Source: Collybiopsis luxurians FD-317 M1 (lineage: Eukaryota; Basidiomycota; Agaricomycetes; Agaricales; Omphalotaceae). Taken from it: a stretch of 64,000 nt of DNA. A program made the position numbers and the translations under genes. Position 1 is the first letter of the stretch. The number at the start of each line of letters is the position of its first letter. The stretch covers positions 1-64,000 of the forward strand of contig KN834759.1 in the NCBI GenBank assembly GCA_000827265.1, in the 5' to 3' direction. Under the pieces are notes generated by a model that searched no databases, had not been told where the DNA came from, and saw nothing but the letters and a program-made list of their open reading frames with translations. Shown one piece after another: positions 34,376-57,166 of the stretch.

Positions 34376-34723
34376 GATGACCAGTTCGTCAATGTTTCCA
34401 TAAATACCAGCTATGTCATCGCGGTTGTATTATTTCATGCTACGAGTTGTAGTTCATCGAGAATTAATTTATACATTTAAAATTCACACCATTCAAGTTA
34501 CGACTTGAGAAACAATTATCAAGAGTTGAATTAATGTTTGTACATTGGCAATTCCTTCCCGACTGAAAGCATCATACTAAACACTCAGAATGTGGTACCA
34601 TACTGGCTTCGGGAATATCATTTGATGTCGCGACGGCAAGCCAAATGGAATGGATTAAATTGCGTTATCTTATCACTAAATAATGAATGTACATTCAAAC
34701 TCCCACCAGGGTAAATCATTGTC
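34376..34723. other. Gene-free stretch after the gap
   Basis: AT-rich 3' flank of DUF6533 copy 2. Nothing else seen. Confidence 0.45.
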
Positions 34724-36614
34724 TCAACGATTTAGTGATGTATCACCGCGAGTAGACAGCGCACTCGTATTGTGAAATCGACTCCTAAACTGGATAGTAG
34801 TACGTTCGTAAACGGAGGAACCAGGGGCTGTGATGTCTCCGAAATATTTTGATTTGGCTAGATGCTACAGCGAACAAATATTAGAACCTGGTTCTCCCTA
34901 GTTCAAAATTTGACTTACCATAACAATTCGAGTAGATAAGACGCTATGTATGACCGCTTGCAGCCTGAACCAACGCTGGTTGTTAGTTGGAGCGGTAGTG
35001 ATTCCGGTCAGGGAAACGAGATAACGACGTACTCAGCGCTGGCCGTTCGGATTTCAGGGATCTGGGACGTCACGCAACATTCGGAGTAAGTTTCCAGCAA
35101 GTGAAATACAGGGACGACATACTCCCTGCTGTAATACTATCCCGATGTTTATGAATCCTAAAACTAGATAGACGATGGGGAAGTCCTCCATCAGTTACTG
35201 TTGATGGGGACGAAGCACTCCAGCAAGCTTACCCAGCATGAACGAAAAGTACAATACACCTATGGGAAAATCAACCGCTCAGTTTTGAAGCTATATTTAC
35301 ACAATCCAGAGACTGACCGTCTCTCCATAAATTGTCGATCAAAGGTGTTCGTATATTTTTCGGTATGTTTTTGCGCCAATTTAGAATACGTACCAACGAG
35401 AATGTTAATGTCACTAGACACGAGTAAACGTGCAGAGAGGGCGACCGACTTTCAGCCAGTAATAGTGAGAGAGAGGATGTGCCATGCACTCACCAGATTC
35501 ATACAAAATTGCCAGAACATAGGGCGCGACAAATGCGTGCTCAAAACTCTCCACACTCAAACTACACACATCGATAAATTGTTCAGAGACAAGAGCCACG
35601 ACTGGGGTTCGAACGATCAGAGCGAGCAAACCGACAAATGAGAACACATACCACGAGAAGTGATTACGCTCTCACTAACTATGTATGCAGCGGGGATAAC
35701 AGCAGCCTGCGAGCAAGAAGGATTTCATCTGCTATTTAAGGTCTGAAGTTGTGACCTGGTACTCACCAAAGAGAAAGCGACCAGTGCCAACAGAATTTTA
35801 AAGCTTCTCCCCCATATTGCCCAAGTCCTTACGGCTATAATGACTACAGGCCCAATCTGTTAGAATCATATTTCCTCCCCAGGTGAGATGGAAATGCACC
35901 TTCCGATGCAATGATTGAAACCAAACGCAGAACTGCAGCAGATTAGTACAAAGATATGCCAAAAACCACAGATTAGTTGCAGAGGATGCGAACGATGACA
36001 GTTTGAAACTTGCCATTCGCAGAATTACTTGTTCCGGATATGTTGTCGCTGTTCTGTAGACAAACATTCACGGGCAGCGAAATTTAACATCGGGCAAAGG
36101 GGGAAAACATCCATAATACTGACAGGAAGGAGCACGATGATAGTCGCTGCCATTGCACAGTATCGAGCTAGGAAGAATGCCACGGAACCTATTGCTATCC
36201 GTTTGGGTCGCCAAACGTATCTTACCTGTCCATTGAAGCGTGTGATGAGCGGAACGCCGAGTCAGAAAAATAGCGGTAACCATTGAGCGCTCACTTCGTC
36301 CCCAAAGGTTAGGACATAATCGTACAACTGAGGTGAATGTGAAGTCGATTGGAAGCTGAAGCGAGAGAGAAAGAACCTACAAAAAGCGTTGAACCAGCAT
36401 CTAGAAAACCAAAGCGTCAACAAGGAGACTGAAAACCGGATCATTAACGCACAGGTTATGCCCTAAGGCAAAGGTAAAGGCAGCAGCAAGGTCAGGTCTT
36501 CAGTGCCAAAGACCCTGCAAAATTAAACAAAAGTCTTACTAGACCCATCCGGCCATTAGCGACACATTCACGCAGAGCACGTAATTGAGAATCGGTCAAG
36601 CCTGCACTATTCAT
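34724..36614 (-). CDS. DUF6533-type multi-pass membrane protein, copy 2
   Basis: Starts at ATG 36614 (MNSAGLTDSQLRALRECVAN) and ends at a TGA at 34724 after SSVYERTTIQFRSRFHNTS. Shows the same blocks as copy 1 (LYDYVLTFGDEV, VAPYVLAILYESG, ALIVRTPVVALVSEQFIDVC) with scattered substitutions, so both copies may still encode proteins. Seven-helix architecture, function unknown. It lies directly downstream of the transporter gene on the same strand. Confidence 0.65.
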
Positions 36615-37339
36615 GTCCAGATATCCTGTAGTCAATATACGCCGCAAGAATTATGAGCTGAACTATGGGATGCAAGGTGAAAGTAGTTTCAGGATGGGTT
36701 TACAGGCACATCGAGGTTTGGAAGGAAGGAGAAAGGATATTTAGCTTGAGGCACCTGCATGTGTTGGTGAGACCGACTCGAGAAAATAGAGTTTATCATC
36801 AATGATGATCACGCCAAGTTTAAAAACGTCGATCGGGTCTTGAGCTTGAGCAGGATGATGGAAAAATTCCGAGCTAGACCAGCGTCCAGAGTCTTGCGAG
36901 TTCGACCCTCATAGCAGGCTGTCTGAAATTTTCAGCGTTTCTAAGTAGGCTAGGGACCATGCTGGGTAATAAATTTTCTAGAAGTACACCGCATCCCAAG
37001 TTCACAGAGGGCCTAATTATACTCACCTGTCGCATAGATAAAATTACTCTCGGATCAGTATCAATTCGGACACCGTGGAACAAGGAAGATACTCGTCTAC
37101 AAGATGTAAGGTAGAGTTGACCCCTGTGCAGGGATTCTAATCTCTCCAAACGCGGTACGACGCGTCTACTTCACGCATTTGCTCGGCGTCTTCCGTGAAA
37201 TCTGCTGGCCGGAGCCTCTGCTGAGATCCGAATTGATTGCTGGGCTTCTGGGATCTGAAGTGTGAATGCCACTGAACAGCCCTGCCACTACTCTCAGATA
37301 GGAACACGCAATTCTATGCTAAGATAAACTCGTGTAATA
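36615..37339. other. Intergenic, DUF6533 promoter and transporter 3' flank
   Basis: Duplicated in 31440-32130 (for example aaaattgagaatcggt- and tacaggcacatygaggttt-type matches). No ORF beyond short shadows. Confidence 0.5.
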
Positions 37340-39790
37340 TTACACGCTTTCTACTCTTTCTTCATGGACGGATGTCTTCTTCTGACCTTCCTGATTGATG
37401 TGTTCCCCAACAACAGCGTCGCCGAAGTCGGCTGCGATCATTTCGAGGGTTCGGCCTTTCGTCCTAGCGTATGTACCGTGTTGAGTTCACTCGCACAGTG
37501 AGAATCAAGTCACTTACTCAGGGAAAAATGTAAAGACCATGATCCCGGATACAAAAGTCGTTGCAACGAAGACATCTGTGGGAATTATATTATCAACTAC
37601 ACTTAGAAGTATAATTTGAACTTACAGTAGTAGTTCTGCTTTATATTTGCGAATGCCTGGTAGCACATGCTAAGAATATAAGGAACCGAGGAATGTCTAA
37701 GAAATGGCTTACACTAGGCCCAGCCTCGGTGATAGCAATGTTGAAAATGAAATGCGAACAAGCCGCCAGCCCGGTGCTGCCAGTGAGGATCAAGATTGAA
37801 TTCGAAATCCATTCAATGGAGACATGACACTCACACTTTGCTTCGCAGGAAGATTGGTAAGATCTCGACTCCGTACAACCACGTCGTACTGTTTATTCCT
37901 AGGTCTAGGTAGAAAAAGAAACGTTAATTGACTTGTTGTCTCAGGAAAGATGAGCTTACAGTATATCGCAGTGTAGAGGTAGATACCAACAATCGTGAAA
38001 TCCTTCCCGACTTTGTTACTTGATGTTGCAAAGAACTTTGTCACTGTATGCATAATCAATTTTTCGAAAGACGCGGTATCGGTTAGGTTAACACGTACTT
38101 ATCGCACAGTAGATGAGGATAGCGGATAATCCTAGCGCTGCAAAACCAAGTAGCTTGACACGACCGACTCTGTCCACGAGGCGAAGCTGATTGACAAGGT
38201 TTATTCGTCATGTTTGGACTTGATATTGCTACCGTATTCACACTCACAGATACAACATTGAGAATGATACCAATTGTTCCGTAAATGGCAGAGAGAAGAA
38301 GAACATTTTGTCCAGCGAAACCTAGCTGTTTGTACAACGTGGACTGGTAGTAGTCTAAACAGAAGCTGCATCAGAACCCAAGCATATACCACCTTGGTCG
38401 TCAAACTCAAACACTTACTGATTACGTTGACTCCAGAAAGAGAAGTCATGGACTGGACGGCGACGGCGATGAGTATACGCTTCTTGTATCTTTCCCATGC
38501 CTCCGCGAAAGATGAGATTTCAATGGACTAGCGAAGATTTATCAGTGATAACCAAGCAAAAGTCCGATCGGCGTAATGCACCTTCTCAAAGAGAATCTGC
38601 GCTTTCATAGTCTCGAATTCGGAATCAACTTCCTCCTAATGGTGGATATGTGAAATGTATTCTCAAATCAGAACTGGGGCGAGCACAGTACTTACGGCCG
38701 ACAATTCGCCTCGAATCTTCGTGAACGCGACTTTAGCCTCTCCATCTCGGCCTTGACGAATTAGCCACCGGGGCGAGTCCGGAAGGAAAAATTGCAATCC
38801 AATAAATAGAATGGGGCCTGGAGGTATCTGAAGTGCAAGGGGGAATCGCCACTGAAAGTTGCCAGTCGACGCGAATCCACAGGCGTAACCAACCCAGTTA
38901 GCTGCGTGAAGGAACGGATTAGATTAAGGGTGTAAGAGAGGTAAATGAGCTGAAACCGACCTAGGCATCCGCCAACTCCGAGCATATAACCAGAAAGTCC
39001 ACCAATTATACCCCGATGCTCGGGTGGGCTAAAATACAATCAGAATCTTATGAGGGAAAATAGGGTCCAGGCATATGCATACGCTATCTCTGAATTATAA
39101 ATTGGAACTGTACCCACAAGTCCTCCGCTAGATAATTAGCAGCTCAACTATTGACCGTAGAAGACCAGGTGGAGCACAACTCACACAGCCATTCCAGTCA
39201 GAATACGGCCTGTAATCGAAAATTGAGCGTATGAGTTCCCAGCAAAGGTGAATGTATCTGACCCACTAGAAACATCGCAAAGTTCGCAGCGGCGGTCTGA
39301 ATGACAGTCCCGATAGTTACCTATAAAATGATACCTCGTTATCCTTATTTCTTTCAATCGATGCTTGGCACTTACAACAATACACAAAGCTTGCATAAAG
39401 CGCTTCCGACCGAGTTTGTCGCCGATGATCATCTGTAAAATGGCCCCAATGGCTTCACCGGCAATGTAAGTCGCGACGATTGCCCCCGTCATCGCAGCGT
39501 TAGGATTGTGCATATCTGACCGGGGCTGTGAGTGATCCGCAGGCAAGATGTAAAAGGGTAAAAGTACAGTTTATGAAGCTTTCATGGGCAATACTTGTCG
39601 TTATAATGCCTGTATCATAACTGTGAAAACCTTTGGTTAGAACACCAGATGACAGCTTTCAAGAAGCGCCAACCCGAAGAGGAAGGAGCCTAAAGAGCAG
39701 ACGAGTCATGAATTGAGATGACAGGTTGGATGCAGAAAAAGCCTACCAAGTCCTGCAAAAAGACCGACCACAATAGCGTAAGCTCTCATT
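37340..39790 (-). CDS. MFS sugar porter
   Basis: Probable start ATG 39790 (MRAYAIVVGLFAGLG), ending at a TAA at 37340; about ten exons. An open frame continues upstream to 39978, so a longer N-terminus is possible. Sugar-porter signatures in order: SYDTGIITTS after helix 1, GDKLGRKRFMQ, TGMAV and GGLVGTVPIYNSEIA, then PPEHRGIIGGLSGYMLGVGG, LPDSPRWLIRQGRDGEA, SLSGVNVIS, LRLVDRVGRVKLLG and, at the end, PETKGRTLEMIAADFGD. These define a 12-helix sugar/proton symporter of the major facilitator superfamily. The substrate is not predictable; hexose, pentose, lactose and quinate transporters share these motifs. The divergent neighbour is a sugar-acid-type aldolase. Confidence 0.88.
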
Positions 39791-40494
39791 TCGCAATCGC
39801 AAGTCGGACGGCTGGATGAGGCGCATGAGGGCGCTTCAAACGATTTATATTCTAATGTCAATCGGGACCTGGCGGTTCGATTACGATAATTGAAATCCGA
39901 CCTCTCGGTCCAGTCTTTCCGAATACTTGATGCTAGGTTGAGCAATTTTGAGAGCCCGAATCTGCACTGTTCGGTCAAGTACTGTTCGTCGGTCTGGTGG
40001 CTTCTCGTTCTCCTTGTAATATTTCGGCCACATAGAAAATATTATTCAAGCAAGTCTTCATAGAACCCTTCAATGGTATCTTTGAATATTAACCTCTGTG
40101 AGTCTCGATCTATCTTAATTTGTATATCCTGGAAACTCCAGATTGCTCAAGGAATTATACTTTTTCCGGTTCCCCACTGTGGGCCCCCGCAGGTCGGACA
40201 ATTGCCTAGAGTAAGTAAGAGAAAACGATAATACTATAAGCTTAGAGAAATATGCCAGCTGAATTTGTGATCAAGTAGAGAGCTCAAATTTAAGAGCAGT
40301 CGCTGAACATACAGAGTTGGTACAAAGCCCGGATCTGCCGGACCTCTCCGGACCTCTCAGGGCCGCTACATCCGTCGGATCATCAGCCGTTCCGTCCGAA
40401 GACCCTCTTTCGGTTTCGGCGGTTTCGACGTTTGAAAAGAACCAATCGCGATGGATGAGTATTTTTCCTGTGAATACCTTCTTCATTGTCCACC
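39791..40494. promoter_or_regulatory. Divergent promoter between transporter and aldolase
   Basis: 700 bp between the two start codons. Contains paired GC-rich motifs: tccggacctctc occurs twice in tandem at about 40339-40362, with tgccggacc just before, plus tccgtcgg and tccgtccg near 40370-40400. Such CGG/CCG-rich elements are typical of zinc-cluster (Zn2Cys6) regulator sites, which would fit co-regulated catabolic genes, but this is inference. Confidence 0.4.
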
Positions 40495-41671
40495 ATGCCC
40501 CTCAATATCCCGCTGCGTCAGAAACTTACTGCAGGAGAGCAGGCTGCAGGCGCTTGGCTTACTTTACCGAGGTGAACAAGCCGGAAATCAAGTTCTCAGA
40601 TGTCGCCATTACTTACTTTCTCTCCAGTACGGCTATCGCAGGTGTTATCGCCCGGACACAACATGTATCCTGGGTACTAATTGATGCAGGTTTGCCTTTT
40701 TGTCGATTTCGAGATACTCCGAAATTTAATTCATCCTTCCTACAGAACATGGACTGATTAATGGTTTGTACCTTGTTCAATATATATACGATCCTCGAGC
40801 TCATTTGAATGCTCCTTAATCTAGACACGCATCTATATGATCTTTCGAATGTAGTTGCTGCCAATGGCGCTTCTCCTATAATCCGAGTTCCTGCAGAGGA
40901 ACCTTGGTTGATCAAGGTTCGTCTTGAAGCGCTTGATTTTTGACTTGATTTATTGATATCATTGCGTATAGAGAGCTCTTGACTCCGGCGCGCATGGACT
41001 GATGGTCCCTATGGCTAACAGCGCTGTAAGCAAATTTATCTCAAACCAGGGGGTTTCTGACTCAAGCAACTCTATGTCAGGAAATTGTCCGAGGCATTGT
41101 ACGTGCAACTAAATATCCTCCTGTCGGGATCCGTGGCTACGGCCCAATGTTCACGAGCGCAACTGGTGCACTGGGAGGAGGATATGCAACCGCTGCCAAC
41201 AACGACCTGGTCATCTCAGTCCAGATTGAGCATCCTCAAGCCGTTGAAGAGATCGAACAGATCTGTCAAGAAGGAATCGACGTCGTCTTCGTCAGTTCAG
41301 TCTGATTTCCGAGACTTTATTCGACTGATCCCAACCATTAGATTGGCCCGTTCGATCTTGCGATGTCTATGGGAGTTGAGTTCGGTGGTGAAGCTCATGA
41401 AGCTGCAATCGCGAAAATCCTCGCTACCGCACAGAAACACGGCAAAGTTGCAGCTATTTTTTGTGAGTTTTTGTGGAATCTTTATAAAGCTGCTATTTTT
41501 AATGTCTCATACGCAGGCCTCAACGGTGAACAGGCAGCCAAACGATTTGCTCAAGGGTTCCAGATGGTCAGCGTCACGACAGATATAGATACCCTTACCG
41601 GTCAATTCGCCGTCGAGTTGAGTACTGCCACGGGTAAGGCTGCGGTAGCCGTGAAGGGATACAGCACGTAG
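40495..41671 (+). CDS. HpcH/HpaI-family class II aldolase
   Basis: Eight exons with consistent phase: 40495-40571, 40628-40689, 40746-40763 (18 nt), 40825-40916, 40972-41025, 41081-41290, 41342-41462 and 41517-41671; 262 residues, the usual family size. It starts MPLNIPLRQKLTAGEQAAGA. Motifs: VSWVLIDAEHGLINDTHLY (metal and substrate-binding region), ALDSGAHGLMVPMANSAE, GIRGYGPMF, VISVQIEHPQAVEEIEQI, VVFIGPFDLAMSMGV. Members cleave 2-keto-3-deoxy sugar acids or 4-hydroxy-2-oxo acids to pyruvate plus an aldehyde, using a divalent metal. The substrate here is unknown. It is divergent from a sugar transporter and convergent with ribokinase. Confidence 0.88.
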
Positions 41672-42059
41672 AGTCTGTGCAGTAGTATACAAAGTCGAAT
41701 TAACTATTCTCTGTGATCGATGGGAGACTAAGATACCATGCACATAACTTTTTTCCGCTATCCAGTTTTGGTCCAGTTGGAACTTTGGAAGATCCTCTTG
41801 CCCGACCCTGATCGGTTCGCGCCTTGGAAGCGGATAACGGGCAGCTGTTACTCCATCCCCGGGCCCTGGATGCGACCTAGATATCGCCTCCGGGGAGAGG
41901 GGGCGGAAGAAGGATTGAGACGTGAAACGGATACGGTGTTCGTCTCAAAGATCCGGATTGGTGGATGAAAGATACTGCTGACGACCGTAACGGGGGTCGC
42001 CCCAGCAGTGCGCAGCAGGAACTTGCGATTGCATCGTATAGAATCAATTACATACTATG
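41672..42059. other. Convergent intergenic region
   Basis: 3' flanks of aldolase and ribokinase. The short ORF here has no family features. Confidence 0.5.
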
Positions 42060-43380
42060 TCACGGCAGCAACATGGCATCGACGTCCTTAGCAAAAGGGA
42101 TGCTTTCCATGGCCCCTCTCTTTTCAACGCACATGCCGGCAGCCTGTATCGATGGTTAGTTAGTTCATGAGAATACAGTCTTGTTGTTGGAAAGAAGAGG
42201 AAACTTACTTGAACGCATCGCTTCAAAACAGAGATGACATCCTGTCGTTGAAGTACTGTCAATCCCTGTTCGTGCAAGTTCATCAATCCTGCAGCCATGT
42301 ATCCAGCGAAACAGTCTCCGGCTCCAGTCGTATCAACAACACCGTTTTGGAGCTTGGCAGCGGGTAGAAAGATGGCTTCCGGAACGGTCCCTGAAGGGTG
42401 GACTTCCATGGTTTCTTGGTGAGATGGAACTAACGCGAGGACTCCCGCTGCGCCGAGAGTGCAGACGATGTTAGTTTTGGGGATCTGGGAGGACAATTGA
42501 AGCAAGGTGGAATACGCCGGAATGTGAGCATATGAAGAACCGCTGATTCCAGGCAAGATGCCTTGCGGAGGACCACCAGAAAGGGCCTTGTACATGTCCG
42601 AAGCTTCGCCTTCGTTTACTATCAGCCAAGTAAGTTTATCCCAAGGGAAAGTCCTGATTTCTTCTTCAGAAGGCATCGGGGAAGGATTGAAAATTGTAAT
42701 CGCGGAAATCTCTGCGGCTGCATTGAGATAGTTGAGGGTATCTTCGAACGGAATTTCATTCTGAAGTAAGAGATGAGTTGTTTCTGGTGAAATGGTTGTT
42801 TTGGGATGTGCTGCGTAATTGGCCCCCTTGAATAAAACTATGTGGGTCAAGTTAGACACTGGACGGTATGCAAACCGTTGAGGCAATTGAACCTACTGAT
42901 GCTGTTTTCCCCGTCGTCTGTAAGCTGGATGACAGCCCTTCCAGTTGATTCCTGTTTCAATTGTGAGGTGTTTGAGAGGAGCTTAATAGAGATACGGGGA
43001 AACCCACAGAAACTATTTCAATATCTGACACGTTAATTCCAGTTTCTTTGAGATATTCAACCACCCAACGACCATCTTCACCGACGGCTCCAACGAGGTC
43101 TACGGAAGCACCAGCCTTGGCCACAGCTACAGCTTGATTAGCGCCTTTCCCTCCCGCGCGTTTTGACATCCCATGGGAGGAAATGGTTTCTCCAGGTCGA
43201 ACGATGTCCTTGACTTGTTATTCATCGTCAACACTGTACCGTACATAGCTCTTTGCACTTGACATAAGACCTACCATGAAAAAATTCGTCGATATCTGAA
43301 ATGAACGGTCAGAATCGAACTGGCAAGGATATTGGTCGTTTCATACTGATGGAGCCACGAACAATGCATTTAGAGGCCAT
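42060..43380 (-). CDS. RBKS: Ribokinase (PfkB family)
   Basis: Starts ATG 43380 (MASKCIVRGSI), spliced to IDEFFH and then to a PGETISSHGMSKRAGGKGANQA block, the PfkB signature 1. Then AVAKAGASVDLVGAVGEDG, ISAITIFNPSPMPS, WLIVNEGEASDMY, TLGAAGVLALVPSHQ, and the signature 2 loop GVVDTTGAGDCFAGYMAAGL with the catalytic Asp in GAGD. The last exon reads AAGMCVEKRGAMESIP, typical of ribokinases, ending at TGA 42060. It phosphorylates ribose at O5 with ATP, feeding the pentose-phosphate pathway. A related carbohydrate substrate is possible, but the GGKGANQA and VQxxGA/GMS pattern favours ribose. Confidence 0.9.
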
Positions 43381-43584
43381 CGCAGAAGAGATCTAGAGGC
43401 GCTAATCAGTGAGCGCTGGTTAGCTCCCAATTTTGGCCAGCGAGCGCTCTACAAGCGCTTAGTTTTTACGGCACTTCGACCCCTTCCACCCCAATAGCTG
43501 AACATGTACATTCACTAATGAGCTCTACTCTCCAGAATCTTTCCAATAAAGATTTTGCTACTTCACACTCTATCTTCAAGTCTA
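43381..43584. other. Short gap holding the presumed left inversion breakpoint
   Basis: 204 bp between the ribokinase start (-) and the first usable ATG of the tuberin C-terminal gene (+). The last 50 bp look like the 3' end of an intron (pyrimidine-rich, ending cttcaag), consistent with an ancestral tuberin intron being cut. The frame before 43585 has no in-frame ATG after a TGA at 43519. Confidence 0.45.
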
Positions 43585-46500
43585 ATGCCTGGCTATCGAC
43601 GACCTTTGGCGAATTTAGTTTTCGAGTTTTGTCGGAGAGTAGTAGCAGGAGAGCCTGGAGACACAGACTACTGTGACGTTGTATGGAAGATTCTGGCAGA
43701 CGAGGTTGTCTTACGAATATACGAAGGAGATCAGGAAGACGACGGAGAGCCTGAACTAGAGGCCTCCGTCGATACCATTGTTGCATTTTTAACAGAATGC
43801 GCCAGTGCTCCTGAGCCGGGAGCCGACGATGATGAAGAAGAGGTGGAGCTTGCTGGAACCTTTGAACTGCATGGATCATCATCCCCACAAACTGCGCATA
43901 ACCCACCCTCGTCCTTTGTCTCGCCAATACTCTCTAGAGTGCAAAATGAAGTCCTTCCCGATGTCGGTTCTTCCCGATCTCAATCACTTCATCCCTCAGA
44001 GGATTTTCCCGAACATCCGAGTCCTGTTTCCTCACGAGACATGGCCACTCGACCTTATCCTATCCAAGCCCTATCCGCTCTCATATCAATATTCTCTCAA
44101 CTCTGCTTCACCCCTCATGCTCTGCCTTCTAACCTAGATTATGTTCTAGCCTATATGGTCCATATTTTCGAAAGCCTTACATTGATACTCACCAGCGCGA
44201 AATCTGTCCGTGCTCGTTTGACGACACTTCAATTTCTCATGCGTTTGCGTGCCGATCGCGACCATAAACTGTACTACAGCGACAACGGCTACGACCGGGA
44301 AGGTCAAATAACTTCACTGGCAACTTTAATTAATCGAACAGGTTCATCGGATGTAGCAGAGACCCCTCCGCCTACTCTAGATGCTGTCTCTGAGTTACGC
44401 AAAGCTCGAGCTCGAGCTCGAATACCGCCTTCTGAACGCGATCTTATGTCGCGTGGTCGTGGTGGGGCGCCGTCGCAGTCGTACACTAGGAACGCGACTA
44501 GCAGAAGTCGTTCTCGTGCTGGCAGATCTGGTATGAATATTCCTGTAGGATTGGGAACTAGAATCGGCAATAGGCCCGCCCTGTGGAGGGTTCCCGAGCA
44601 GCTTCCCTTCACTGTACCCACGGCAGACATTCCCAGTGAGATTCTAGGTACCTATGATCCCAGCACACCTGACGATGCTGTGGTCCTTCCTATTTCAAAA
44701 TACCTCACCACCGTCCTCGCTATTTTGGAGTCGGAGAGGAACTGGGATATCTTGTCCTATGTACTATGCCATTTACCGACTCAGCTGGCCAATAAGCACC
44801 TCTTCTGCGGACCCAGGTCTCGCGTTGTGATTTCAAGAATTCTCAACATCTTGTGCCTAGGTATACTCGAAGGTGGTAATTTCGCCCGAAGTATCGACCG
44901 ATGGCCCACTGGCATTAAGGTGCGAGACGCTCATGGTTTGGTCTACCATACATTGTCGGTATTGGTTAGTTATAAGCTGTGTTTTGACCTCCAGCAGAGG
45001 CACTCATTGGTCGAAGTCTTCCTCGGTGGATTAAGCGGCCAACCAGCGACCATTATGTGCTGTCTCAATGCCCTGTCGATCTGCGCGTTCGAGCTACAGC
45101 CCTCCATCATACGATATCTCTCCTCCGGCATCCTAGTTAAACTCTCACAAATCATGTCAAACCCGGACATGGCGGTCCACATTCTTAGCTTCCTTTCTAT
45201 CGTCGGGTCTCATCCCCCGCTCTACACAAATTTTGTCGAGGACGATTACAAAAAGGTTTTTACTGTTGCTCTTCAGTATCTACAACACCACAATCGGATG
45301 ACCAAATCAGAGTCACCCGACTCCCCCATGAGCTCATGGGCTCTTTCTCAGCACGTTCGCATACTTTCGTATCATCTCGTGTATGTCTGGTTCCTCGCGG
45401 TCAAGTTACCTGACAGGCCAAAGTATCTGCGGTATATCACCAGACACTTACTCCTTGCCAACGAGGGAAACGACCAGGTCGATGATCCGACGGAAGTGTG
45501 TTTCGACTGGTTGGCCAGATACACATACGCCAGCGCTGATCCGCGTCCGGCCAATTCCCTCCTCCAGGACATAGTATTTAATCCAACACTCTCTTCTGAT
45601 TCCGAAGGTCAAAGCTCAAACACTGTCGCAAACGAGAAGACCTGGCTCCTCGGTAACTCCGTTGTGACCATTCGGGTACTTCGAAAGCGTGGCTGGATCG
45701 AAATACTCTCTCGGAGGCCCTCAGGGTATACTAAATTTCTGGGTCGATTAGAGAATGTTCCGCTGGTAGGTCCTGGGGAAGTGGACCCAGACATGCTTGC
45801 TATACCAGCGATTCATCTAATGGATCGTGAGCCTCCTCGTGCTCAAAGACCGGATGCTGATCAAGGAGAGACAGAAGAGGTGAAAACTTTATCTCTAGCC
45901 TGTCTATAATAGCTGTCTAACAATATCTGTTCTTGTAGAATCGAATGGAGGAACAAGAGCTGGTGCAGGATTTGTTGGAGCAACCGGAGGACGATCAAGA
46001 GGAACCTGCCCGACCGGATCCACTTGCTGGCTATGTCTGGAGTGGGACAGCACCCTCGCAGAGGCGCAAAGACGTTACCATCGATCCTTCATTCTTTGCT
46101 CTCCAAATGTCATCCTACCCTATCCGTCTTGGACCATCAAATGTTCGCATGTTGGTCAACTCGAATGATGTCCCCCGGTTCACCACCACCCTTGATCGGA
46201 TGCCCGTCATTGATACTCACAAGGTAGGCATATTGTACGTTGCACCAGGCCAAACAACCGAGGTCGAGATCCTCCGCAATACTCACGGTTCTCCCGCCTA
46301 CACCCGTTTCCTCGAAGGTATCGGTCGGTTAATCAATTTGAGGGGGCAGATCGATGTTTATGCCGGCGGACTTGATCCTGATGAAGACGGTGAATATGCC
46401 TACGCATGGTGGGATGATATCGGTCAGATCTTATACCACACAGCAACGATGATGCCTTCCCATCCGCACGATCAACAGTGCACTTTCAAAAAGCGTCACA

Positions 46501-47006
46501 TCGGTAATGACTTTGTGCGTATTGTGTGGAATGACTCGGGGATGCCGTACCGCTTCGATACTTTGGCGACCCAGTTTCAGTTTGTCAACATCGTCATTGA
46601 ACCTCACTCGATTGGAACGATCTCTGCGTACTCGAACAATCCGCACGAAACCGAGTACTACAAGGTAACCGTGCAGCGAGCGGAACGTATGATCGAATTT
46701 TCGCCTGTAGGGCACTACAAACTCGTTAGTGCCGAGAACTTGCCAATGCTGGTACGACAACTCAGTCTGCTGGCGGATTGGTTTGCGTATGTATTTTCGC
46801 GCACGGATCACGATACACAGCGAGTGGAAGTTAGGACGAATTGGCAGGAGCGGTTGTCTGCTATTAGGAGATTCAAGGACCAGCAAGTCAAAGCGGGTGC
46901 AGGTGTACAGGACAGAGGAGCTACTAATGAGCAAGAAGGAGATGGGGGGCAAAAGGACGGTATTCTGGTGCAGGAGACGTTCAGGGACTTTACCTCTTCG
47001 TTTTAG
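43585..47006 (+). CDS. TSC2: Tuberin C-terminal half with Rap/Rheb-GAP domain
   Basis: Two exons, 43585-45879 and 45939-47006, 1120 residues from ATG 43585 (MPGYRRPLANLVFEF). Residues 1-765 are helical tuberin-type repeats with disordered inserts (a Glu/Asp-rich patch, then a basic Arg/Ser patch). Exon 2 carries the GAP domain: TTEVEILRNTHGSPAYTRFL, YAWWDDIGQILYHTATMMP, KKRHIGNDFVRIVWNDSG, TQFQFVNIVIEPHS, LPMLVRQLSLLADW. The IGND segment contains the asparagine thumb position used by tuberin for GTP hydrolysis on Rheb, so the enzyme looks competent. Tuberin with hamartin restrains TORC1. The usual tuberin N-terminal third is missing here; a matching piece lies at 54955-57166 on the other strand. 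The true start is uncertain. Confidence 0.88.
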
Positions 47007-47597
47007 TTGATCAATTTTAGTTTCATTTGATGCATCTAGCAATACAGTGAATCGGAGTAACTAGCAAATGTTGTATTTTTTAAAGTTGAATCAAAAAGTT
47101 AAATATCTGGAGAGAATGTAGCGAAATTTTTACCATCAGGATATCTGATTACGGTACATACATGATCTGTCCAAAGCCCCCTCCAAGTCCCCCGGGGACT
47201 ATTTCTATGCAGGAAATTCAAGTCCCTTCCCGGAGAGCCCCGCGAACGGACGATAGTCAAAGAAACCGTTGACCCGCACTTCCAATAACGAGCTGCTGCG
47301 AATTCATTCTTTCCGGGGCGAGTTGTACTAGTGATGGTGTTTTGTTCGTAACTTACAGCGCTTGCCGTGGGTGGTGGTACCCTATCCACTTATGATATCC
47401 ACTTATGATATGACGCCTTGCGGCTGACTAATCACTTTTATCTTCTCTCATTGTCAACGCCGTCCCTGCGGGTTGTATCCTATCTGTTCCTCTCTCCTGC
47501 GTGTGTCTTCCTGGCTTAATTCTGCCGGTTCTCGTCTGATATTAACGGCGAACGAAATTACATTCCACTGCACAGAACAGATATTGAATCTTAGTCC
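47007..47597. other. Intergenic, MUN-gene promoter
   Basis: 3' UTR of TSC2 C-half and 5' region of the next gene. A direct repeat (ccacttatgatat) occurs twice at about 47386-47412. No ORF supported. Confidence 0.5.
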
Positions 47598-50500
47598 ATG
47601 TCAAGGAGAAGCTATGGGAGTTTTGCGCACGAGAAACGACTGTCCAAGTATCGCGTTGCGGATGATGAATTATTCAAGTGCGTCTTTGACGGCTTCCGCC
47701 TTGTCCTGCTCACTGACCTGAATTGATATCCAGCTATGTTCTCCGAGTAGCGTGAGCTTCAATTTCAAAGCTCTTTGCATCAAAGGATCCTAATTACTCT
47801 ATTGAACATTTAGTCTTTTAAGCTATCTCATGATTCCCAAGCCTACCACGACAACAGAAATGAAGACCAGCGAATCCAAGGAACGGGAGCATTCTTCCAG
47901 ACTGGCCGCTCTGTCCAATTTCTCTATCGGTGACATGATTAAGGATCTCAGGGATGGCCCTAATTCAAAGGGCGTGAAGTTTCCTGATAAACTAATAAAA
48001 GTCCTGGAACAGAAGCTGCAGGACATTGCAATGGGCAAGGATTCTGCGTGCGTAGTCATCTCTCAAATCTTACGATCCGGCCAACTGAGACCGGGCATTC
48101 AGGTACTCGGACCAGCTTGTACGGAGGACGATGGGCAAGTTCTACGGACAGTTTATGGTGGATAGCTTCAAGCGTCAAATGAAGGAGAATCGAAAGATTG
48201 AGGAGCTTATCTTGATGTTCGCTACGCATGCCACTGCTGTATTGAAGAAGGAGCCAACTTTGACCGGTGATTTGTGGAAGATTGAACTCAATAACCACAT
48301 CGCTCTCTTTGTCAAGCTTCTGAGAGAGTGTCTACGGGGGCTAAATCATGTTTCCCCGGAATTACTTGGACGACTGGACATGTACACCGCCAAACTCGCG
48401 CCAGCTCAGTCTAACGACTCAGGTTACGATTCTTCTTCGACTTCGAGAGATCGGGACTCCGTTGGCTCTTTGACTATCAGTGGGAGTATTTCTGATATGG
48501 CCCTGGTCAAGACAGTCGCATCGTTGTTTAAAGTGTCAGAACCTTCGGTACAGAAGGAGGTTGATCAGTTGCGAGTGGCATGCACAGAGAAAGTGAGTTC
48601 GCTGTCTCAGAGTGCCTGATTGATTTTTCACATCTGTCCTAGGCTGCTCTTACTGATCTCAAGGTTTGTCTCTGTTACGCTCAAATATGTCAGAGAACCT
48701 GATGCTTTGAAGACTTGTTTGAAAAACATCAACGCGGGCGCACCTTTCCCAGGACGAAGAGATGATTTTGATACTGATGAAGCCTGGCAACATTGGAAGA
48801 CGCTGGAAACAACCCAATTACAACAAATGATGGTGGCGATGGTGCAGTTCAATCCAGAATTAGCCAAGTCTACTCCTTCGGATGTATTACCGTCAGTTGG
48901 GACCTCCTCATCTTCCGCTCGACCAGGTTCTCTGTACTCTCAAACGCAGTCATCCTCTCGACACGGCTCAATAAGCAGCAGACTGTCCCTCAGTGGCGAT
49001 TATGTCGACGTCACAGCGCCAGAAGATGGCGACGAAGACAGTATTCAAGTCGGTCATCACTTCACATATATTCCTCCTAATCCTAGACGATTCTACAAGC
49101 GACTACTAGAGTTGTGTCTCATTGCAGATCTGGAAGTTATGCTTAGTCCAGAAGTCGATGACAACGACGAAGTCTCATTAGGAATTCTTTCCGCAGCACA
49201 CATTGACCTCATGAACGAATGCGCTATGCGATGGCGGATAGGACATGCCTACAGGGCCTCGTGCTTCCTCGATCTAGTGAAACAATTTTACGAGCGCAAC
49301 GATGTTCCGCTGGAGTGTATACCCGAAGCATTGCAGAATATTGTGCGCGCTATGCACGATATTGACTTGGACAAGTGGACCATACAGGATGTACGAATTC
49401 GTTCACTCTTTCTGTCTCTGGAGCTCATAGTATCATCCTACAGGTCGATTATGTTTCTAATATATACGGAAGTCTTTTCAACGTCTTTCTATCGTCATTA
49501 TACCATTCCATGGATGCCATACCTAACCTGAAACCCTCTGAAATTGAGCCCTATCTTTCCATCCTGGAGCACGTTCGAGATAGTGGCTTTCTTGACCGTT
49601 TCAACGTGGATGTCAATGCTCGTCTAGCTGATGTCCAGAATCGGGTACGTCAAGTTGCTATGGAAAGCTTCACTGTCAAGTTGGGCGAGCTGCAATCTGC
49701 TCCTGGGGTCAACCGAGCTTTACCATTACTCTTCATGACTGACGAGATTGAAAAGTCAGCGAAAGCGTTGGACAAACGGTTCCCGGAGCCTATACTGGGG
49801 TGAGCGTTGATGATTGTCGAATTTTCGCAATTGATTGAACGTTCCGTAAAGAAAAATTGATCTGGTATCCTTGGTAGTCGAGGTCCAAATTCCGATGTTT
49901 ATCTCCGAGTTACAATCGTCTCAGAAGCGTCTTTTTGAGTCCTCTATGAATGGTCCGACGCCTGATGTACCTATTCAAGATATATTTGCCCTGTACCGGC
50001 GAACAAAGACGTTACTTGCGATGCTCACTGCATTTGCCCCAGAGTGCGCTTGTTTCACATTCTTCTTGTAATAACCGGGCTCACAAACATTCCACAGGCA
50101 GCAGATCGACTTTAATCTGACTGGTTTCTTTGAGCAGTACGTGCTACAGTGGTTGGTCAACACGGACAACAAAACCGGAAACTGGGTGGAAGCTGTAAGA
50201 TTATGCGTTTCTTGCAGTGATTGTCGCTTTGCTAACCTGCATATCAACAGGCTATAAATGCTGATAAGGTTCAGTTTGTTTGCTATCGTCTGACTGACGT
50301 TATCTCATCTTCTTTTCGATCAGTTTCAAGCGGAGGGGGGTGAAGGACATAGTTCGTCAATCGTGGATCTGTTTGACTCCCTTAGGAGTCCTATCAACTT
50401 CCTACAAGATCTTGAGTGGGAGGATGAATATCAAAATGCTCGATTCTTCACTTCTCTTGCCAAGGTACCCATGACGCACTCTCTTTACATGGCACACACA

Positions 50501-52463
50501 GAAAGCTAAATATTTTTTGTTTCCAGACTGTTGCGAAGGCCGTAGAAACCTACTGCAGGACGGTGGAAACGAAATTCCTGGCGGAAATGTTTCCTCGGCC
50601 GAACGACTATATTCAGCCACAGAAGTCTTCTGCTTGGCTGGAAAAAGCACGGCAGCTCGCAATTACAGGGGAAAAGAAAGTCGAGCCCTTCAACTTTCAA
50701 CCCGAGTCGTGTGTCAAGCTGAACAACGTCGAGGCCGCTCGAAAGTTACTGGACAATATGTACAACCAGATGGAGGTCGATAAACTAGCTAGAGTTCTTG
50801 CAGAATTAGCCCCGCCTGTTCCAGAAAAAGTCGAGCGGGAAAGATTCTTGTTCAGCGTCAAGATCGTGTTAGCGGAGGGCTTGATGTCCAGCGAAGCCAC
50901 GCTGACGAACAAGTTGGATACTTTTGTAACTCTGAGCGATGAGGCTGGGAACAGGCTTGCTAAAACGAGGACAATCTACGAAACAGCTTCACCTCGATGT
51001 GAGTATTACATCCCGCCGTACTTCCTTTCCTGACCTTTCGAGCAGGGGAGGAAACATTCGACATATCCGTAGACAAACCTTTATGGCTCATGGTGAGCGT
51101 CCGTGATCGAGCGCTGGTTGGTAAACACGACACTGTCGGGAGGGCCTACCTTTGCTTGGATTCACGTCGTTTCGGAGACTTGATGACTCACGATCTATGG
51201 ATGGATTTGGATTCTAATGGACGAGTGCTTATTCGAGTCAGTATGGAAGGCGAGAAGGACGACATCCAGTTCTACTTCGGACGTGCCTTCCGATTCTTAA
51301 AAAGAGCAGAGTCGGATATGCTGCGGATTTTCATAGATAAGGTACTGATTGAAGTCTGCTCCTCGTTCATGACTAAGGCTTGTTTTCCAGATGTCGCCTT
51401 TTATACGGCAATGTCTATCTAGGACGGTTGTAAAGTCACTCATCAAGGCTAATAGTCTAGGTTTAGATTATAACAAAGCCTTTGGCAATGTTACAGCCCT
51501 GTATCGTTCGGCCGTAGGTGGCTCCGCCAGCGAAGTGCAGATTCCACTTCCGTCTTCGGAGAAACCCCGGGTCCGGCCGGAGGAGCTCACCGACGTCGAG
51601 GTCGAACAGGCAATCGTTCCCCTCTTCGACTATTTCGATGCGAATCTCCAGACGCTGAATACATATCTGAGTGATACAGCGAAGGAGAAAGTAATGACTC
51701 GTGTATGGAAAGAAATCCTTACTGTCATCGAGGGTCTTTTAGTGCCGCCGCTGTCAGACGCTTCCAGCGATATGAAGCCTCTGAGCGATAAAGAGGTCGA
51801 TATCGTGTTCAAATGGCTAAAGGTAAGCTTATCAAGCCTTCCGATATTCAGTGTGGTTAATTGATGCTTATTCAAGTTCTTGCGTGACTACTTTTACGCT
51901 GGTGGTGAAGGACCCGTGCCGCTCGAGCTCTTACAAAACCAAAAATACCGTGACGTTGTTTCGATACGCCTGTATTACGACTGGTCTACGTATGTCTCGA
52001 ACTTGTCGACAACTTTCTTGTTTTCACCTGACGTTTTGGCAGAGATGAGCTTATGGAGGAATGTGTTCGCATGATGCAACAAAGCCTCCGCTCTTCAGCG
52101 GGAACTATCAAGAAACGGGCCAAAAGTGTATACCAGCAACGCAACCTTGGCACCATCAAAGAACGAAAGAAGGAGAAGCAGCAGGAGAAAGAGGTCACCA
52201 ATGGCCAGACGATTATGCAAATCCTTCGCATGCGGTTCGTTCTTATCTGCGTTTTCGACAGGCCTGTCGGCTAAGCTGTTATCACTTTCATTAGACCCGG
52301 AACATCGGAATTCATTGCACAGCAGCTGCAAATCTTAACCCAGTTGCAACAGGAACAGGAAAAGCGCACCAAACAAGCGGAAGCCCGCAAACTGTCAAGG
52401 TCGAATAATAGTGTCAAAAAACAGAGTGATAATCTTCCTCCTGTGCCTCCGTTACCGTCATAA
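47598..52463 (+). CDS. MUN/C2-domain protein, fungal Munc13 relative (Ync13 type)
   Basis: Starts ATG 47598 (MSRRSYGSFAHEKRLSKYRV), spliced to NYVLRVALLSYLMIPKP and then on through about 15 exons to TAA 52463 (ends VPPLPS). The N-terminal third has the conserved YDxx-like start and GKFYGQFMVDSFKRQMKE. The central part is the MUN region with MHD1 (DIHELYRRT-type helices; here IQDIFALYRRTKTLLAML, FEQYVLQWLVNT, FFTSLAKTVAKAVETYC). A C2 domain follows (DTFVTLSD, TRTIYETASPRWEETFDI, SVRDRALVGKHDTVGRAYL), then MHD2 (VEQAIVPLFDYFDANLQTL, VMTRVWKEILTVIEGLLVPP, FKWLKFLRDYFYAGGEG). Order and length (roughly 1,250 residues) match fungal Unc13/Ync13 proteins, which act in exocytic vesicle priming at the cell surface and in septation. 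Confidence 0.87.
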
Positions 52464-53316
52464 AATTCAGAATCGTAATGCATCTATCCTATTCTAAAGT
52501 ACATAGATACCTTATTTGCTCTGTATACCGCCTGTTCCGTCCTTTCTTACTCTTGCTTTCGTTCCTCTCGAAAATATTGCTTCACTCTGTCAGGGATATT
52601 TTGTACTACTTACCTTGTTGTTTACTTGTTGATTTTTTTCGGATACAGATGTTTTTACCTACGCATTCATGGACATGAAAGATTTGTTTGATTTCGTACC
52701 ATTTGAAGTTTGCACATCGATTTGACCCTCTTATGGGCAGAAGAGATAAAGGCCAAGCTCAAAACTTGTGCTTCGACAAGAATTACAAATTTCTTAATGC
52801 TTCCCTTGCCCATGTTACTAAACTCTTACACTTCGAATCAGGCTGTTGTACATAAAGCAATCCTAGGGTTCAGAAGGTACATAATGAGCTCAAGGATACT
52901 AGCAATGAAATTAATTACCCATAAATAAAGATATTTTCACTCCTGAATTTGGAATCTTCTTTATATAAATCAGATCTACTTTGAATCCTACATGTTTTAC
53001 AGTTTCACAGCTCTGTTCCTTGATTTCATTTCCTCATAAAAAAATAACTGCATTTTGCTAGAATGATTATCAGTTACCTCGGCTTGGTACCTACTGTGTT
53101 ATAACTTATTTTGGATGAGCCCTAGCCGGGGTTTCTGAGCCGGGCCCCAGCCGGCACATAACTACTACTTAGTTGAACCTCATATTACCTTTTTTCTTGA
53201 ATATACCAATCCAAGGCTTGACCCATACCAGACTCTTGCTGCTGCCATGGATATAATCAAATCCATCATATTTGGCATTTAACCTTTGATACCCCAGTGT
53301 AATTCCTGTTGGATTA
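52464..53316. other. AT-rich gene-free stretch
   Basis: 3' flank of the MUN gene running into repeat-like DNA. A GC-rich island at 53124-53160 (agccgggg, gagccgggccccagccgg) resembles the inner right part of the nearby inverted-repeat element (gagccggttgtcagccgggc), so it may be an element remnant. Confidence 0.5.
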
Positions 53317-53825
53317 CAGCTCGTCAGAAAAACCTAGGCCAATTTAAAACAAAGATGACATATTAGCTAACTTCGCGGCTGGCAGTNNNNNNNNNNNNNN
53401 NNNNNNNNNNNNNNNNNNNNNNNNNNNNNNNNNNNNNNNNNNNNNNNNNNNNNNNNNNNNNNNNNNNNNNNNNNNNNNNNNNNNNNNNNNNNNNNNNNNN
53501 NNNNNNNNNNNNNNNNNNNNNNNNNNNNNNNNNNNNNNNNNNNNNNNNNNNNNNNNNNNNNNNNNNNNNNNNNNNNNNNNNNNNNNNNNNNNNNNNNNNN
53601 NNNNNNNNNNNNNNNNNNNNNNNNNNNNNNNNNNNNNNNNNNNNNNNNNNNNNNNNNNNNNNNNNNNNNNNNNNNNNNNNCTGGCAGTGGCCGCCATTCA
53701 AAATTTGAGCCGGTTGTCAGCCGGGCCCCAATCCTCTCGTAATTCCTATAGACTTGGAGCGAGCCGTGCGACCGGCAAAACTATGTCATTTTAAAAAATT
53801 TGGCCTAGGTTTTTCTGACGAGCTG
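53317..53825. mobile_element. Terminal-inverted-repeat element with TA target duplication (MITE or Tc1/mariner-like)
   Basis: Left end cagctcgtcagaaaaaccta then ggccaa at 53317 matches the reverse complement of the right end, ttggcctaggtttttctgac then gagctg, ending at 53825. Both ends are flanked by TA (53315-53316 and 53826-53827). The match continues imperfectly inside (gatgacata against atgacatag). The middle is an N run, and the sequence on both sides of the run shares ctggcagt. No transposase is visible in the known part. Confidence 0.75.
53387..53680. other. Assembly gap (294 N)
   Basis: Gap inside the inverted-repeat element. The edges overlap by ctggcagt, so its real size may be near zero or quite different. 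Confidence 0.9.
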
Positions 53826-54954
53826 TAAAATTCCACCAAAATTCCCCATTCCTGTTTCCAAAAATTGTGTCAAACTTGATTGTTTGTCGGACGTTTAGCA
53901 GTAATTACTTAAACTGGTGGATTTTCTTCTGAGGAAAGGAGGCTGCCTATTAAACCAACCCCCTAATCTCCATAGCTTTCTCCTAAGCTAGGTACATAAA
54001 TATCTCAATTAAAAGTGTTATCTTCCCTACCTGAGGAGGACATATTATTGATAAGTGGCGATGAAGGCTATGGTTGCCAAGGAATATCACGGGTAAATCG
54101 CCATGGTCCGAGGGACTCAGACTAGTTACCTCCTAGTTGTTTAAGTCTACCCCGGCCGTCGCCGTTGGCTCGAGGGAGTGGGTATTCCAACTTTGCAGGA
54201 CATCTTAGTTGCTTGCCGACACCACCCTACTATCTACCTAGGCAATTCGTGGTGGGCTGGGATAGGCAGACAATTAAGATTTCTGTGAAGGAGGATATTC
54301 ACGAGTCAACAGGAGCATCTGCTGCATACATGATTTCATGGACCTAGGCAATCTGTGAAATCGCTGTTGAGGCATGTCTCCAACCGGGTTAGCTGATCTG
54401 ACCACCTCTCAGCTCTCGTTCCAGTCGCTCTGGAACATCCGGGTTACAGGGCGTTCACTGAAGATGATACGCATGATCTTCAGGCTTGTCGGTGGTTCCG
54501 ACTCTCCTTTCGAAGGGAGTGAACGGGGTTCAATTCCTCACACGCTCGGGTGCCCATACTGAGCTATTATATTCCTAGGTAACTTTTTAATGATTGATTT
54601 GGCGCTAGCACTCTAGTCGTCTGTCACAAGTCTGTCAGACGGGATATATGCACCAGTGCAAGCCCGAGTCGACCACACTTCTGGTATAAATTTTCTTTCA
54701 TTCAAGGGATTTTTGTCGTATGATATGACTGTTTGGAATTGTAGCTCGCACTTGTTTGTGTTGAGGTGCTTGTAAAATGTCAACCTTTGATTGCGTTCCG
54801 AAGCTTACCAAGCCTAGCCCCAGCACATGTTAGCCTTGTAGATTGTCATGATATGTACATGTCCTTAGATCCCTAGCCTATCTCCAACGAAAATGGCAGT
54901 GAAAAGATATACCCCTGTCCCCAAAATTGCTCTCACCGTGGCCTAATAACAACC
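53826..54954. other. Gene-free stretch, right side of the presumed inversion
   Basis: No recognisable gene. Short ORFs lack family features. Contains the nested inverted repeats at 54453-54524 (listed separately). The stretch ends at the stop of the tuberin N-terminal-like gene. Confidence 0.5.
54453..54524 (+). other. Candidate structured RNA element (nested inverted repeats)
   Basis: Three hairpins in a row, ctgaagat/atcttcag (54458-54465 with 54476-54483), gtcgg/ccgac (54488-54492 with 54498-54502) and ctc-cctt/aagggag (54502-54519), are enclosed by gttca/tgaac (54453-54457 with 54520-54524). A string ggttcaattcc, which fits the tRNA B-box consensus, follows at 54527. No matching acceptor stem was found, so it is not called a tRNA. 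It may be chance or a remnant of a Pol III repeat. Confidence 0.3.
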
Positions 54955-57166
54955 TCAACCCCGTAAATCTTTCACATCCTCATACGTTCTCTCCAGCACC
55001 TTCATCACCGACTTCCTCGTCAACGCCTTCCTGCTATTCATCGCCAACGGACTCTCCAGTAACTCTTTCCAGTTTTCGAGCCACTCTGGAGAAGTAGGGG
55101 ATAAGTTTTCCTGCATGATCTCGGGAAGTTTTGACGTATCTGAATCAAAGAGGTGGGAGGAAATGTGGAGGAGAGTCGTAGAGAGGGGAGGAGAGAGGAT
55201 CATGGTGTGGTCAAGCGCGAGGAGGAAACATAGACTGCGTAGGAAGGGCGTTGCTGCGCTTGAAGGTTGGGAGAGAGGCATGAGGTAGGGTGTACCATCA
55301 GAATTTCTGTGTGTAGTTAGTAATATGAATGGGGGAAGCTGGCATTGAGTAAACTTACTTGAGAAATAAGACGTATCCGGCCAGTTGAAACAACGTCTCC
55401 CCAACCGTCCGAGACTCTTCCTCATCCAGCCTCACATTTTCTTCATCCCTCGACTCGACTTCATGAACAACATCCTTCAATATCCCAGCAATCTCTTCCA
55501 AAACACGCTCCTTCCCATCCTTCACCCACATTCCTTCTTCGCTCGTACTCGGACTCGTACTCGGACTCGTGTTCGCAACTCCTAATCCTAATCCTAGTCC
55601 TAGTCCTAACCCAGTCCCAGAAACACTCGCACTCGCACTCCCACCAGTCCCACCAGGATCCGGCTCCTCCTGAACCCTAAACCCAAATTCGACCCACGCC
55701 CGCGTACTCCCCGCCAACGACTTCCTAAACCTCTCCGCATCCCACCCATTCGCACTCGCCGACGAAAGCGACAGCGGCTCCGACTTTGGCCACGCCCGCT
55801 CCAACATATCCCTTGACAAATCCAAATGCGCCGGAGCCCCCGAATGCGAGTATCCCACCGCGCTTTCCTTTGAGATGTACGCGCGCGCGAGGCGCGTCGC
55901 TAGCGTCCGGCGGATATACTCGCGCAGGCTGCGGAGCGCGCCGAAGGAGGTTTGGATGGCCATCTGGATGACTTTGGGAGGGGTTTTTGGGGTCATGTGA
56001 GTTATGTGGGTTGGGGGGTAGAGGTTCCGTTGGAGGATGCGGAGGCAGGTGGACGAGTAGGGCCCGGAGAGGAGGGAGTTGAGGGTTTCACCGATGCGGT
56101 CTTCAACGTAGGATCGTTTTCCGGCGGCACTTCGGGAGGCTGTGACAGAGAGTCGGGGGAGTGGGGAGGCACAGCTGGCCAAGGCGCGGAAGAGTAAGGG
56201 GAGGATCGTGTCGAGGGACGTAGGAGGTAGTTGTTTGAGTTGCTTGGTGAGATGTGTGATGTACAACGATACAGCGATGTCGATTGGCTGTTTTACGACA
56301 GGTTGGGGAGATAATACGGGAGGACTGGAGAATGTCGGAGAGGGTAGAGAGGTCAACGATATAGAAGAATGTTGCCTGTGATGAGAGAGAGGTGGACGGG
56401 TCGTTTCGGGAGGGGACGCTGGAGAGGTAGGTCTAGGAGGTACATCAATACATCTGTCGACCATATTCCCATAAAACTCCAATATACCCTCGACTTCTTC
56501 CTCCGTCAACCGAGCGACAACCTCTGGGTTTTCAAGGACGGAATTGAGGAAAGCAGAAAGAATTTCAATGCTTCGTTCCCTTTCAGCCCGTTCATCACGT
56601 TCGTTGGGTCCGAGGACGAATAAACGTTCAAAGGCATCCATAATCCACAACTTGAGCACATTAAAAAACTGAACCTCGATCCCCAGAATCTCCAACCCAA
56701 ACTTTGTGATCGCCCTCAACGCTTTAAACTTGGGCTCCCAAAGCTCCGTCGTCCACGTCGCCGCTGCCTGACCAGTGAACAGCGCAAAGTACGACATCCT
56801 ATCCGCCAACTCGAGACTTTTCGCTTCTCCGTTCTCCCAGTACGCTGACAGAATATCGAACCCAGCTGCCTGCAACGGAACAGGGGCATCCGAAGCACAT
56901 AACGCAGCCAAAACGGGCATAAGAACAGTATGTCGAGGTAGCGGCGAATAGGTGCACAGAGCACTCGCCAGAGCCCGAGCATTAGCCAAACCGGGGACTG
57001 CAGGAGGCATAAGAGATTGAACGAGCTCATCGACCGATAGCGGAGCTGTAACCGGCGTCGTTGGAGTTTCGATTTTTGGTTTTCGCCACGCAGAAAAGGA
57101 AGTAAAGGCAGTGGTCGTGTTGGCTCTTGGACGGGTCCGAAAGGTGTCTCCATCCTGCGGGGCCAT
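54955..57166 (-). CDS. TSC2: Probable tuberin N-terminal half as a separate gene
   Basis: Two exons, 57166-55359 and 55306-54955, 719 residues from ATG 57166 (MAPQDGDTFRTRPRAN). Helical throughout: VPLQAAGFDILSAYWENGE, LWEPKFKALRAITKFGLEIL, ERERSIEILSAFLNSVLENP, VSLYITHLTKQLKQLPPTSL, VEDRIGETLNSLLSGPYSST, ATRLARAYISKESAVGYSHS. A low-complexity Gly-Leu repeat lies at about residues 525-540. It ends SVMKVLERTYEDVKDLRG at a TGA. To my recollection these blocks are those of the N-terminal third of basidiomycete tuberins, which would continue directly into the YRRPLA segment that begins the gene at 43585. The two together (about 1,840 residues) have the length of one tuberin. The alternative is an unrelated HEAT-like protein. 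Confidence 0.68.

Follow-up and report, generated by a model that had tools for sequence, protein, structure and literature searches.

We report that tuberin (TSC2), which is usually made as one long protein, is encoded by two genes on opposite strands in the mushroom Collybiopsis (Gymnopus) luxurians FD-317 M1, a member of the family Omphalotaceae. Both genes lie in the window analysed here, the initial 64 kb of a 1,088,088-base contig (Table 1). The Omphalotaceae tuberins that we found are cut at the same place, and their two products likely dock with each other, probably on TSC1, to form a working GTPase-activating protein (GAP) for Rheb. A first-pass annotation of the window had recognised the two parts, each with an open frame, and left the choice between a two-piece tuberin and a recent loss. 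Matching ends in four genera and the constraint on the N-terminal part favour the former.

The plus-strand gene encodes the C-terminal half. Pfam searches identified Tuberin (PF03542, E=1.8e-39) in its exon 1 and Rap_GAP (PF02145, E=3.2e-56) in its exon 2, in agreement with its initial description as the GAP-bearing part. The product is identical over its full length (100%) to GYMLUDRAFT_70880, whose public name is "hypothetical protein". Residues H932, G954 and N955 are invariant in alignment A2, and were paired by eye with H1620, G1642 and N1643, listed in a section of PMC7840889 as catalytic residues of the human TSC2 GAP. A Foldseek/VIA search with the C-half structure model returned human TSC2 as the top matches, and placed residue 1 of the model at human residue 476. 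The N-terminal third is missing, as pointed out earlier; the protein starts at the M-P-[G/D]-Y-R-R-P column shared with its relatives, and no in-frame methionine lies between the upstream stop and the ATG. Protein searches of the C. luxurians genome detected each C-half exon once, and a second or decayed copy of either was not found.

The minus-strand gene is the tuberin N-terminus, by sequence and predicted fold. PF11864 (tuberin N-terminal DUF3384) passes its cut-off on the spliced protein (E=8.3e-9; 35.2 bits against 28.1), and falls under it on exon 1 alone (E=3e-4). The spliced model runs to 719 residues and terminates directly after TYEDVKDLRG, as first read, and its product matches GYMLUDRAFT_70882, another "hypothetical protein", with 100% identity over the full length. 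In searches of the PDB, the N half as a single sequence gave chance-like matches only (E 0.012 or worse), and a profile built from alignment A1 (56 rows, full-length tuberins included) reached PDB tuberins via the C-terminal part, with N-part alignments scoring negative. The two genes together carry the complete tuberin domain set (PF11864 in the N half, PF03542 and PF02145 in the C half) and sum to 1839 residues, against a combined length of about 1,840 estimated at first, which is that of one tuberin. These domains are not on one polypeptide, however, as they are divided between two opposite-strand genes here and between two proteins in four genera. An intact or full-length TSC2 elsewhere in the C. 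luxurians genome, which the first-pass annotation had named as one finding that would speak against a split, was looked for in protein searches with both halves and not found.

Table 1. Coordinates of the two tuberin genes, their break points and neighbouring features (window positions unless a contig is given).
Feature	Position	Strand	Remarks
TSC2 C half, 1120 aa	43585..47006	+	exons 43585-45879, 45939-47006; later HEAT solenoid, dimerisation region, Rap_GAP
C-half intron	45880..45938	+	GT-AG, phase 0; from sequence
C-side breakpoint	43585..43596	+	ATG CCT GGC TAT = M P G Y; 6/6 C proteins begin here
TSC2 N half, 719 aa	54955..57166	-	exons 57166-55359, 55306-54955; N-terminal alpha-solenoid
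N-half intron	55307..55358	-	GTAAGT...CTAAC...CAG; from sequence
N-side breakpoint	54955..54969	-	GAT TTA CGG GGT TGA = D L R G stop; 7/8 N proteins finish here
Ribokinase (PfkB), intact-looking	42060..43380	-	PF00294; introns chosen by eye; adjoins C half
Intergenic stretch, divergent ribokinase/C half	43381..43584	.	204 bp; candidate two-way promoter; single genome match
Multi-exon gene 3' of C half	47833..52463	+	exon ends approximate; weak MUN and C2 matches
Short element, 32-nt terminal inverted repeats	53314..53828	.	gap 53387-53680 inside; away from breakpoints
Decayed N-half copies	C11:287180-288487 and C11:295044-295558 (L010:2181-3488, L011:45-559)		stops and gaps

Protein sequences place the split in at least four genera, and it is neither recent nor an assembly error. 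N-half genes of 668–719 residues are present in the shiitake genus Lentinula (five listed clusters), Rhodocollybia, Gymnopus and Collybiopsis, with those outside Collybiopsis measuring 668–696 residues at 63–78% identity. C-half genes of 1103–1125 residues occur in the same four genera, and the five closest relatives among the C matches listed, from Lentinula (three), Gymnopus androsaceus and Rhodocollybia butyracea, span that same size range at 77–78% identity. These comparisons cover 95 N-half matches and the best 120 of 390 C-half matches. All four genera belong to the Omphalotaceae, and the unsplit Stygiomarasmius to the Campanellaceae. The TSC2 proteins of Omphalotus, Mycetinis, Marasmiellus and Moniliophthora fall outside the matches listed, and Collybiopsis confluens, which appears among the ribokinase matches discussed below, is in neither TSC2 list.

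The end points of the halves are nearly exact. Seven of eight N proteins finish at a single alignment column (...VKDLRG), the Rhodocollybia protein continuing for three residues (VIV), and all six C proteins start at a single column (M-P-[G/D]-Y-R-R-P). A DLRG ending, allowing up to five residues beyond it, is confined to those eight of the 95 N matches; an M-x-x-Y-R start is likewise confined to those six among the best 120 of 390 C matches. The halves are thus complementary, with no gap and an overlap of about three residues (L-R-G versus M-P-G). At the C start column, methionine occupies 20 of 23 unsplit tuberins and isoleucine the other three, with leucine in all eight N proteins. Since methionine is so common there in unsplit tuberins, the new start codon probably pre-existed as an internal methionine.

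Other short matches do not share these ends. Among the 114 other C matches listed, 102 are single proteins of 1676–1958 residues, many of which also carry PF11864. Nine of the remaining 12, all shorter, could be placed, and their starts are scattered over reference positions 450–700, compared to 713 for the junction; three (P0069, P0111 and P0117, 1567–1577 residues) were left unplaced. On the N side, 37 of the 95 matches were placed, 31 of them short metagenome proteins, of which 16 end at reference positions 596–599, the site of a conserved intron that corresponds to the N-half intron of Table 1, and 15 elsewhere (536–1271), none in DLRG. These short metagenome proteins look like exon pieces or incomplete models.

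Trees of both halves, built after removal of columns with more than 20% gaps, recover the split proteins as a monophyletic clade that is sister to the unsplit tuberin of Stygiomarasmius scandens. The support for the clade is 97 as printed in the N tree; the C value was lost on re-rooting. The ratio of N to C distances has a median of 0.96 among split tuberins (10 pairs from five species with both halves), spans 0.53–1.34 in unsplit pairs of like divergence (five pairs with a C distance below 0.5), and has a median of 1.25 across all 253 unsplit pairs. As the ratios resemble those of unsplit pairs of similar divergence, the N half is under about the same constraint as in tuberins made in one piece, with the exception of G. 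androsaceus. Conservation within the clade is somewhat higher beside the break than over each gene as a whole (0.84 versus 0.76, and 0.89 versus 0.77), which puts the two adjoining stretches at percentiles 69 and 78 among windows.

The C. luxurians genome also illustrates what an unneeded N copy looks like. A search of the genome with the N half returned the N gene itself, two decayed copies and a few weak matches (E of about 0.1 or worse). The decayed copies retain 63–75% identity over their longer pieces. Some 7 kb separates the two, the intact N gene is about 230 kb away, and no C-half copy accompanies them. The longer relic aligns across the intron region of the N half and, therefore, DNA copies are likelier than retrocopies, an origin that we disfavour.

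Human TSC2 residues 1–418 bind TSC1, which runs along the HEAT ridge; HEAT repeats 1–12 form a wing stabilised by TSC1, and HEAT repeats 13–18 form the core with the dimerisation region and GAP (as described in passages of PMC7804450). An N-terminal solenoid fragment of TSC2 from C. thermophilum has been solved by crystallography, according to part of PMC7840889. A single fission in a common ancestor would have severed the solenoid at a turn linking two predicted helices, near human residues 476–482 and directly past the TSC1-binding region. The wing that binds TSC1 would then stay with the N half, and the C half would keep the core HEAT repeats together with the dimerisation region and the GAP. 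The halves may re-associate end to end with no covalent link, TSC1 acting as a bridge. The upstream region of ribokinase, 204 bp off, may have given the C half its promoter. Trans-splicing at the cut was considered and rejected, as a splice between the nearest GT downstream of DLRG and the AG that precedes the C-half ATG yields a stop (by eye, C. luxurians only). More tentatively, the shiitake family could run TORC1 control via a natural two-subunit tuberin, whose wing and core, expressed from separate promoters, would be dosed, localised or degraded independently and so provide an extra control point, one that a single-chain TSC2 lacks.

Several observations weigh against such a two-subunit enzyme. 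The N half evolves faster in G. androsaceus, with ratios of 1.33–1.98 for pairs that include this species; the stem branch of the split clade is long in the N tree (0.34, compared to 0.18 in the C tree); and ratios between the split species and Stygiomarasmius reach 1.29–1.62 (0.96–1.64 for unsplit species). Given these three features, some relaxation or a new function of the N half is possible. The halves of G. androsaceus (P0128, P0003) are also on scaffolds of unlike length (333390 and 793092), compared to 705046 for both in Rhodocollybia; taken with the faster N half, this is a possible sign of a weakening link between the subunits. The C-half structure model is weak, with a predicted local distance difference test (pLDDT) score of just 61. 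Gene pairs outside C. luxurians are known from protein records, and one half is listed for some species (by name, N only for Lentinula edodes and C only for L. boryana). A family search of the genome for TSC1 (PF04388) gave no match; a PF11864 search of the same type also gave none, though the known N half is present, and therefore neither search shows absence. TSC1 has been reported in Phanerochaete chrysosporium (in a portion of PMC7032718), and Basidiomycota with Tsc2 only are spoken of in one passage of PMC11836306.

Other explanations of the two genes fare less well. That the C half is the working GAP by itself, with the N half now an independent protein doing another job, such as partnering TSC1 or serving as another scaffold, would account for the long N stem, for the faster N half and unlike scaffold lengths of G. 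androsaceus, and for the ability of N copies to duplicate without the C half. We consider this unlikely, as N is otherwise constrained within the clade much as in unsplit tuberins of similar divergence, the stretch expected to pack on the C half is conserved right up to the cut, and N is kept in all four genera. Somewhat less likely again is a duplication of TSC2 after which the two copies lost opposite halves. The decayed N copies could be taken as traces of such a duplication, but they match the N gene only and not its flanks (within the 14 kb fetched), a second or decayed C half was not found, and an overlap of about three residues is hardly expected from independent decay. An artefact of assembly or gene modelling is extremely improbable. 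An assembly gap does lie 1.3 kb from the N half, and other fungi have short TSC2 models too; however, both breakpoints are in gap-free sequence and the same two pieces, with matching ends, recur in three other genera. Were the gap-bounded contig 34376–53386 flipped, the halves would remain about 9 kb apart. A scaffolding error, doubted from the outset, is very unlikely because independent assemblies of other genera carry orthologs with the split; recent pseudogenisation is rejected on the conservation across genera. The recent loss offered earlier as one of two outcomes is wrong, since at least four genera have the split.

As to how the fission occurred, one proposal is compatible with a two-subunit tuberin: that an 11.4-kb local inversion (about 43.5–54.9 kb) cut TSC2 in an Omphalotaceae ancestor and moved the C half beside the ribokinase promoter. 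The halves are complementary, opposite in orientation (in this genome) and have end points shared by four genera, and the near-exact complementarity and opposite strands fit one break by inversion. The breakpoint stretches each match only themselves in the genome, which is in keeping with the proposal. No repeats were seen at them and no inverted repeat joins them, the latter counting against the proposal. Undoing the inversion would place ribokinase about 12 kb from an intact ancestral TSC2, a neighbourhood that should then be found in unsplit relatives. We tallied by hand the assemblies present in both the ribokinase and the TSC2 lists (the latter from the best 120 of 390 C matches), with scaffold length as a proxy for scaffold identity. 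TSC2 and ribokinase are on scaffolds of the same length in just one of 36 unsplit assemblies, that of Mycena floridula (one of 31 for single-sequence, single-contig records). The tally counts Mycena sanguinolenta as two assemblies, and omits Agrocybe pediades and Armillaria, for which strains or species differ between the lists, and Lentinula, with pooled strains or one gene listed. The C half and ribokinase, in contrast, share a scaffold length in all three split species with single-sequence records (C. luxurians, R. butyracea and G. androsaceus), which favours the inversion. L. raphanica, left out of these three as a pooled multi-strain record, has unlike lengths (C half 814156, ribokinase 69256), which counts against it.

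The linkage of ribokinase to the C half is thus common to the split clade and rare outside it, and therefore probably arose on the stem lineage, at the time of the split or a little earlier. The nearest outgroup, Stygiomarasmius, gives an ambiguous answer, its ribokinase protein being present on two contigs, so that a rearrangement on the stem lineage is possible. Of the inversion suggested by the first-pass annotation, the opposite strands and complementary ends hold up, whereas the ancestral neighbourhood that it needs is indicated by scaffold length in one of the 36 unsplit assemblies; it is unproven, and we regard it as a doubtful though reasonable account of the event.

The ribokinase model is 96% identical to GYMLUDRAFT_94406 and 64–75% identical to other Omphalotaceae ribokinases. 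Assembly gaps in the window are restricted to 33501–34375 and 53387–53680. The second is within the short element with terminal inverted repeats, which lies 1.1 kb from the N-half stop; its left arm has 25 further matches in the genome and, therefore, the element probably represents a family like the miniature inverted-repeat transposable elements. The gene downstream of the C half had been labelled a MUN gene, which is plausible but unconfirmed, as its matches to PF06292 (E=0.015) and PF00168 (E=0.14 and 0.22) are all below cut-off. The region 32000–36000 is AT-rich in the composition profile (fraction of G+C 0.30–0.35), a figure that may be depressed by the 875-base gap inside it.

TSC2 acts as a central brake on TORC1 and, in humans, as a tumour suppressor. 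A natural division near human residues 476–482, kept over a long period, suggests that the wing, which binds TSC1, and the catalytic core are able to evolve as chains of their own, and a modular model of the TSC complex becomes directly testable in a cultivated mushroom genus, Lentinula. The split may also be useful as a shared derived character when genera of the Omphalotaceae are placed. It carries a warning for annotation, as both halves are named "hypothetical protein" here. Gene fission as such is an established type of event. No description of a split TSC2 was found in a literature search that covered few subscription journals and no preprints, and a search aimed at dating the split gave no usable result.

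Among known systems, three invite comparison. The two subunits of RalGAP alpha/beta are separate large proteins, and not two halves of one. That complex (9qwp) shares a related GAP and solenoid fold with the proteins described here, but it is a weaker match to them than TSC2. The tuberins of human and of P. chrysosporium (PcTsc2, 1763 residues from one gene, as given in part of PMC7032718) are alike in their three domains, the order of the solenoid, the catalytic residues and a length comparable to the summed 1839 residues, and differ in being one polypeptide from one gene, where the Omphalotaceae have two of each, cut near human residues 476–482. The mitochondrial cox2 of Campsomeris wasps, as portrayed in sections of PMC5374615, offers a parallel in which one protein is encoded as two complementary genes, apparently forms a heterodimer, and was found in a screen for inversions. 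That case concerns a mitochondrial gene of a single wasp genus and involves a nuclease-bearing insert, whereas the fission described here affects a nuclear signalling gene in four fungal genera.

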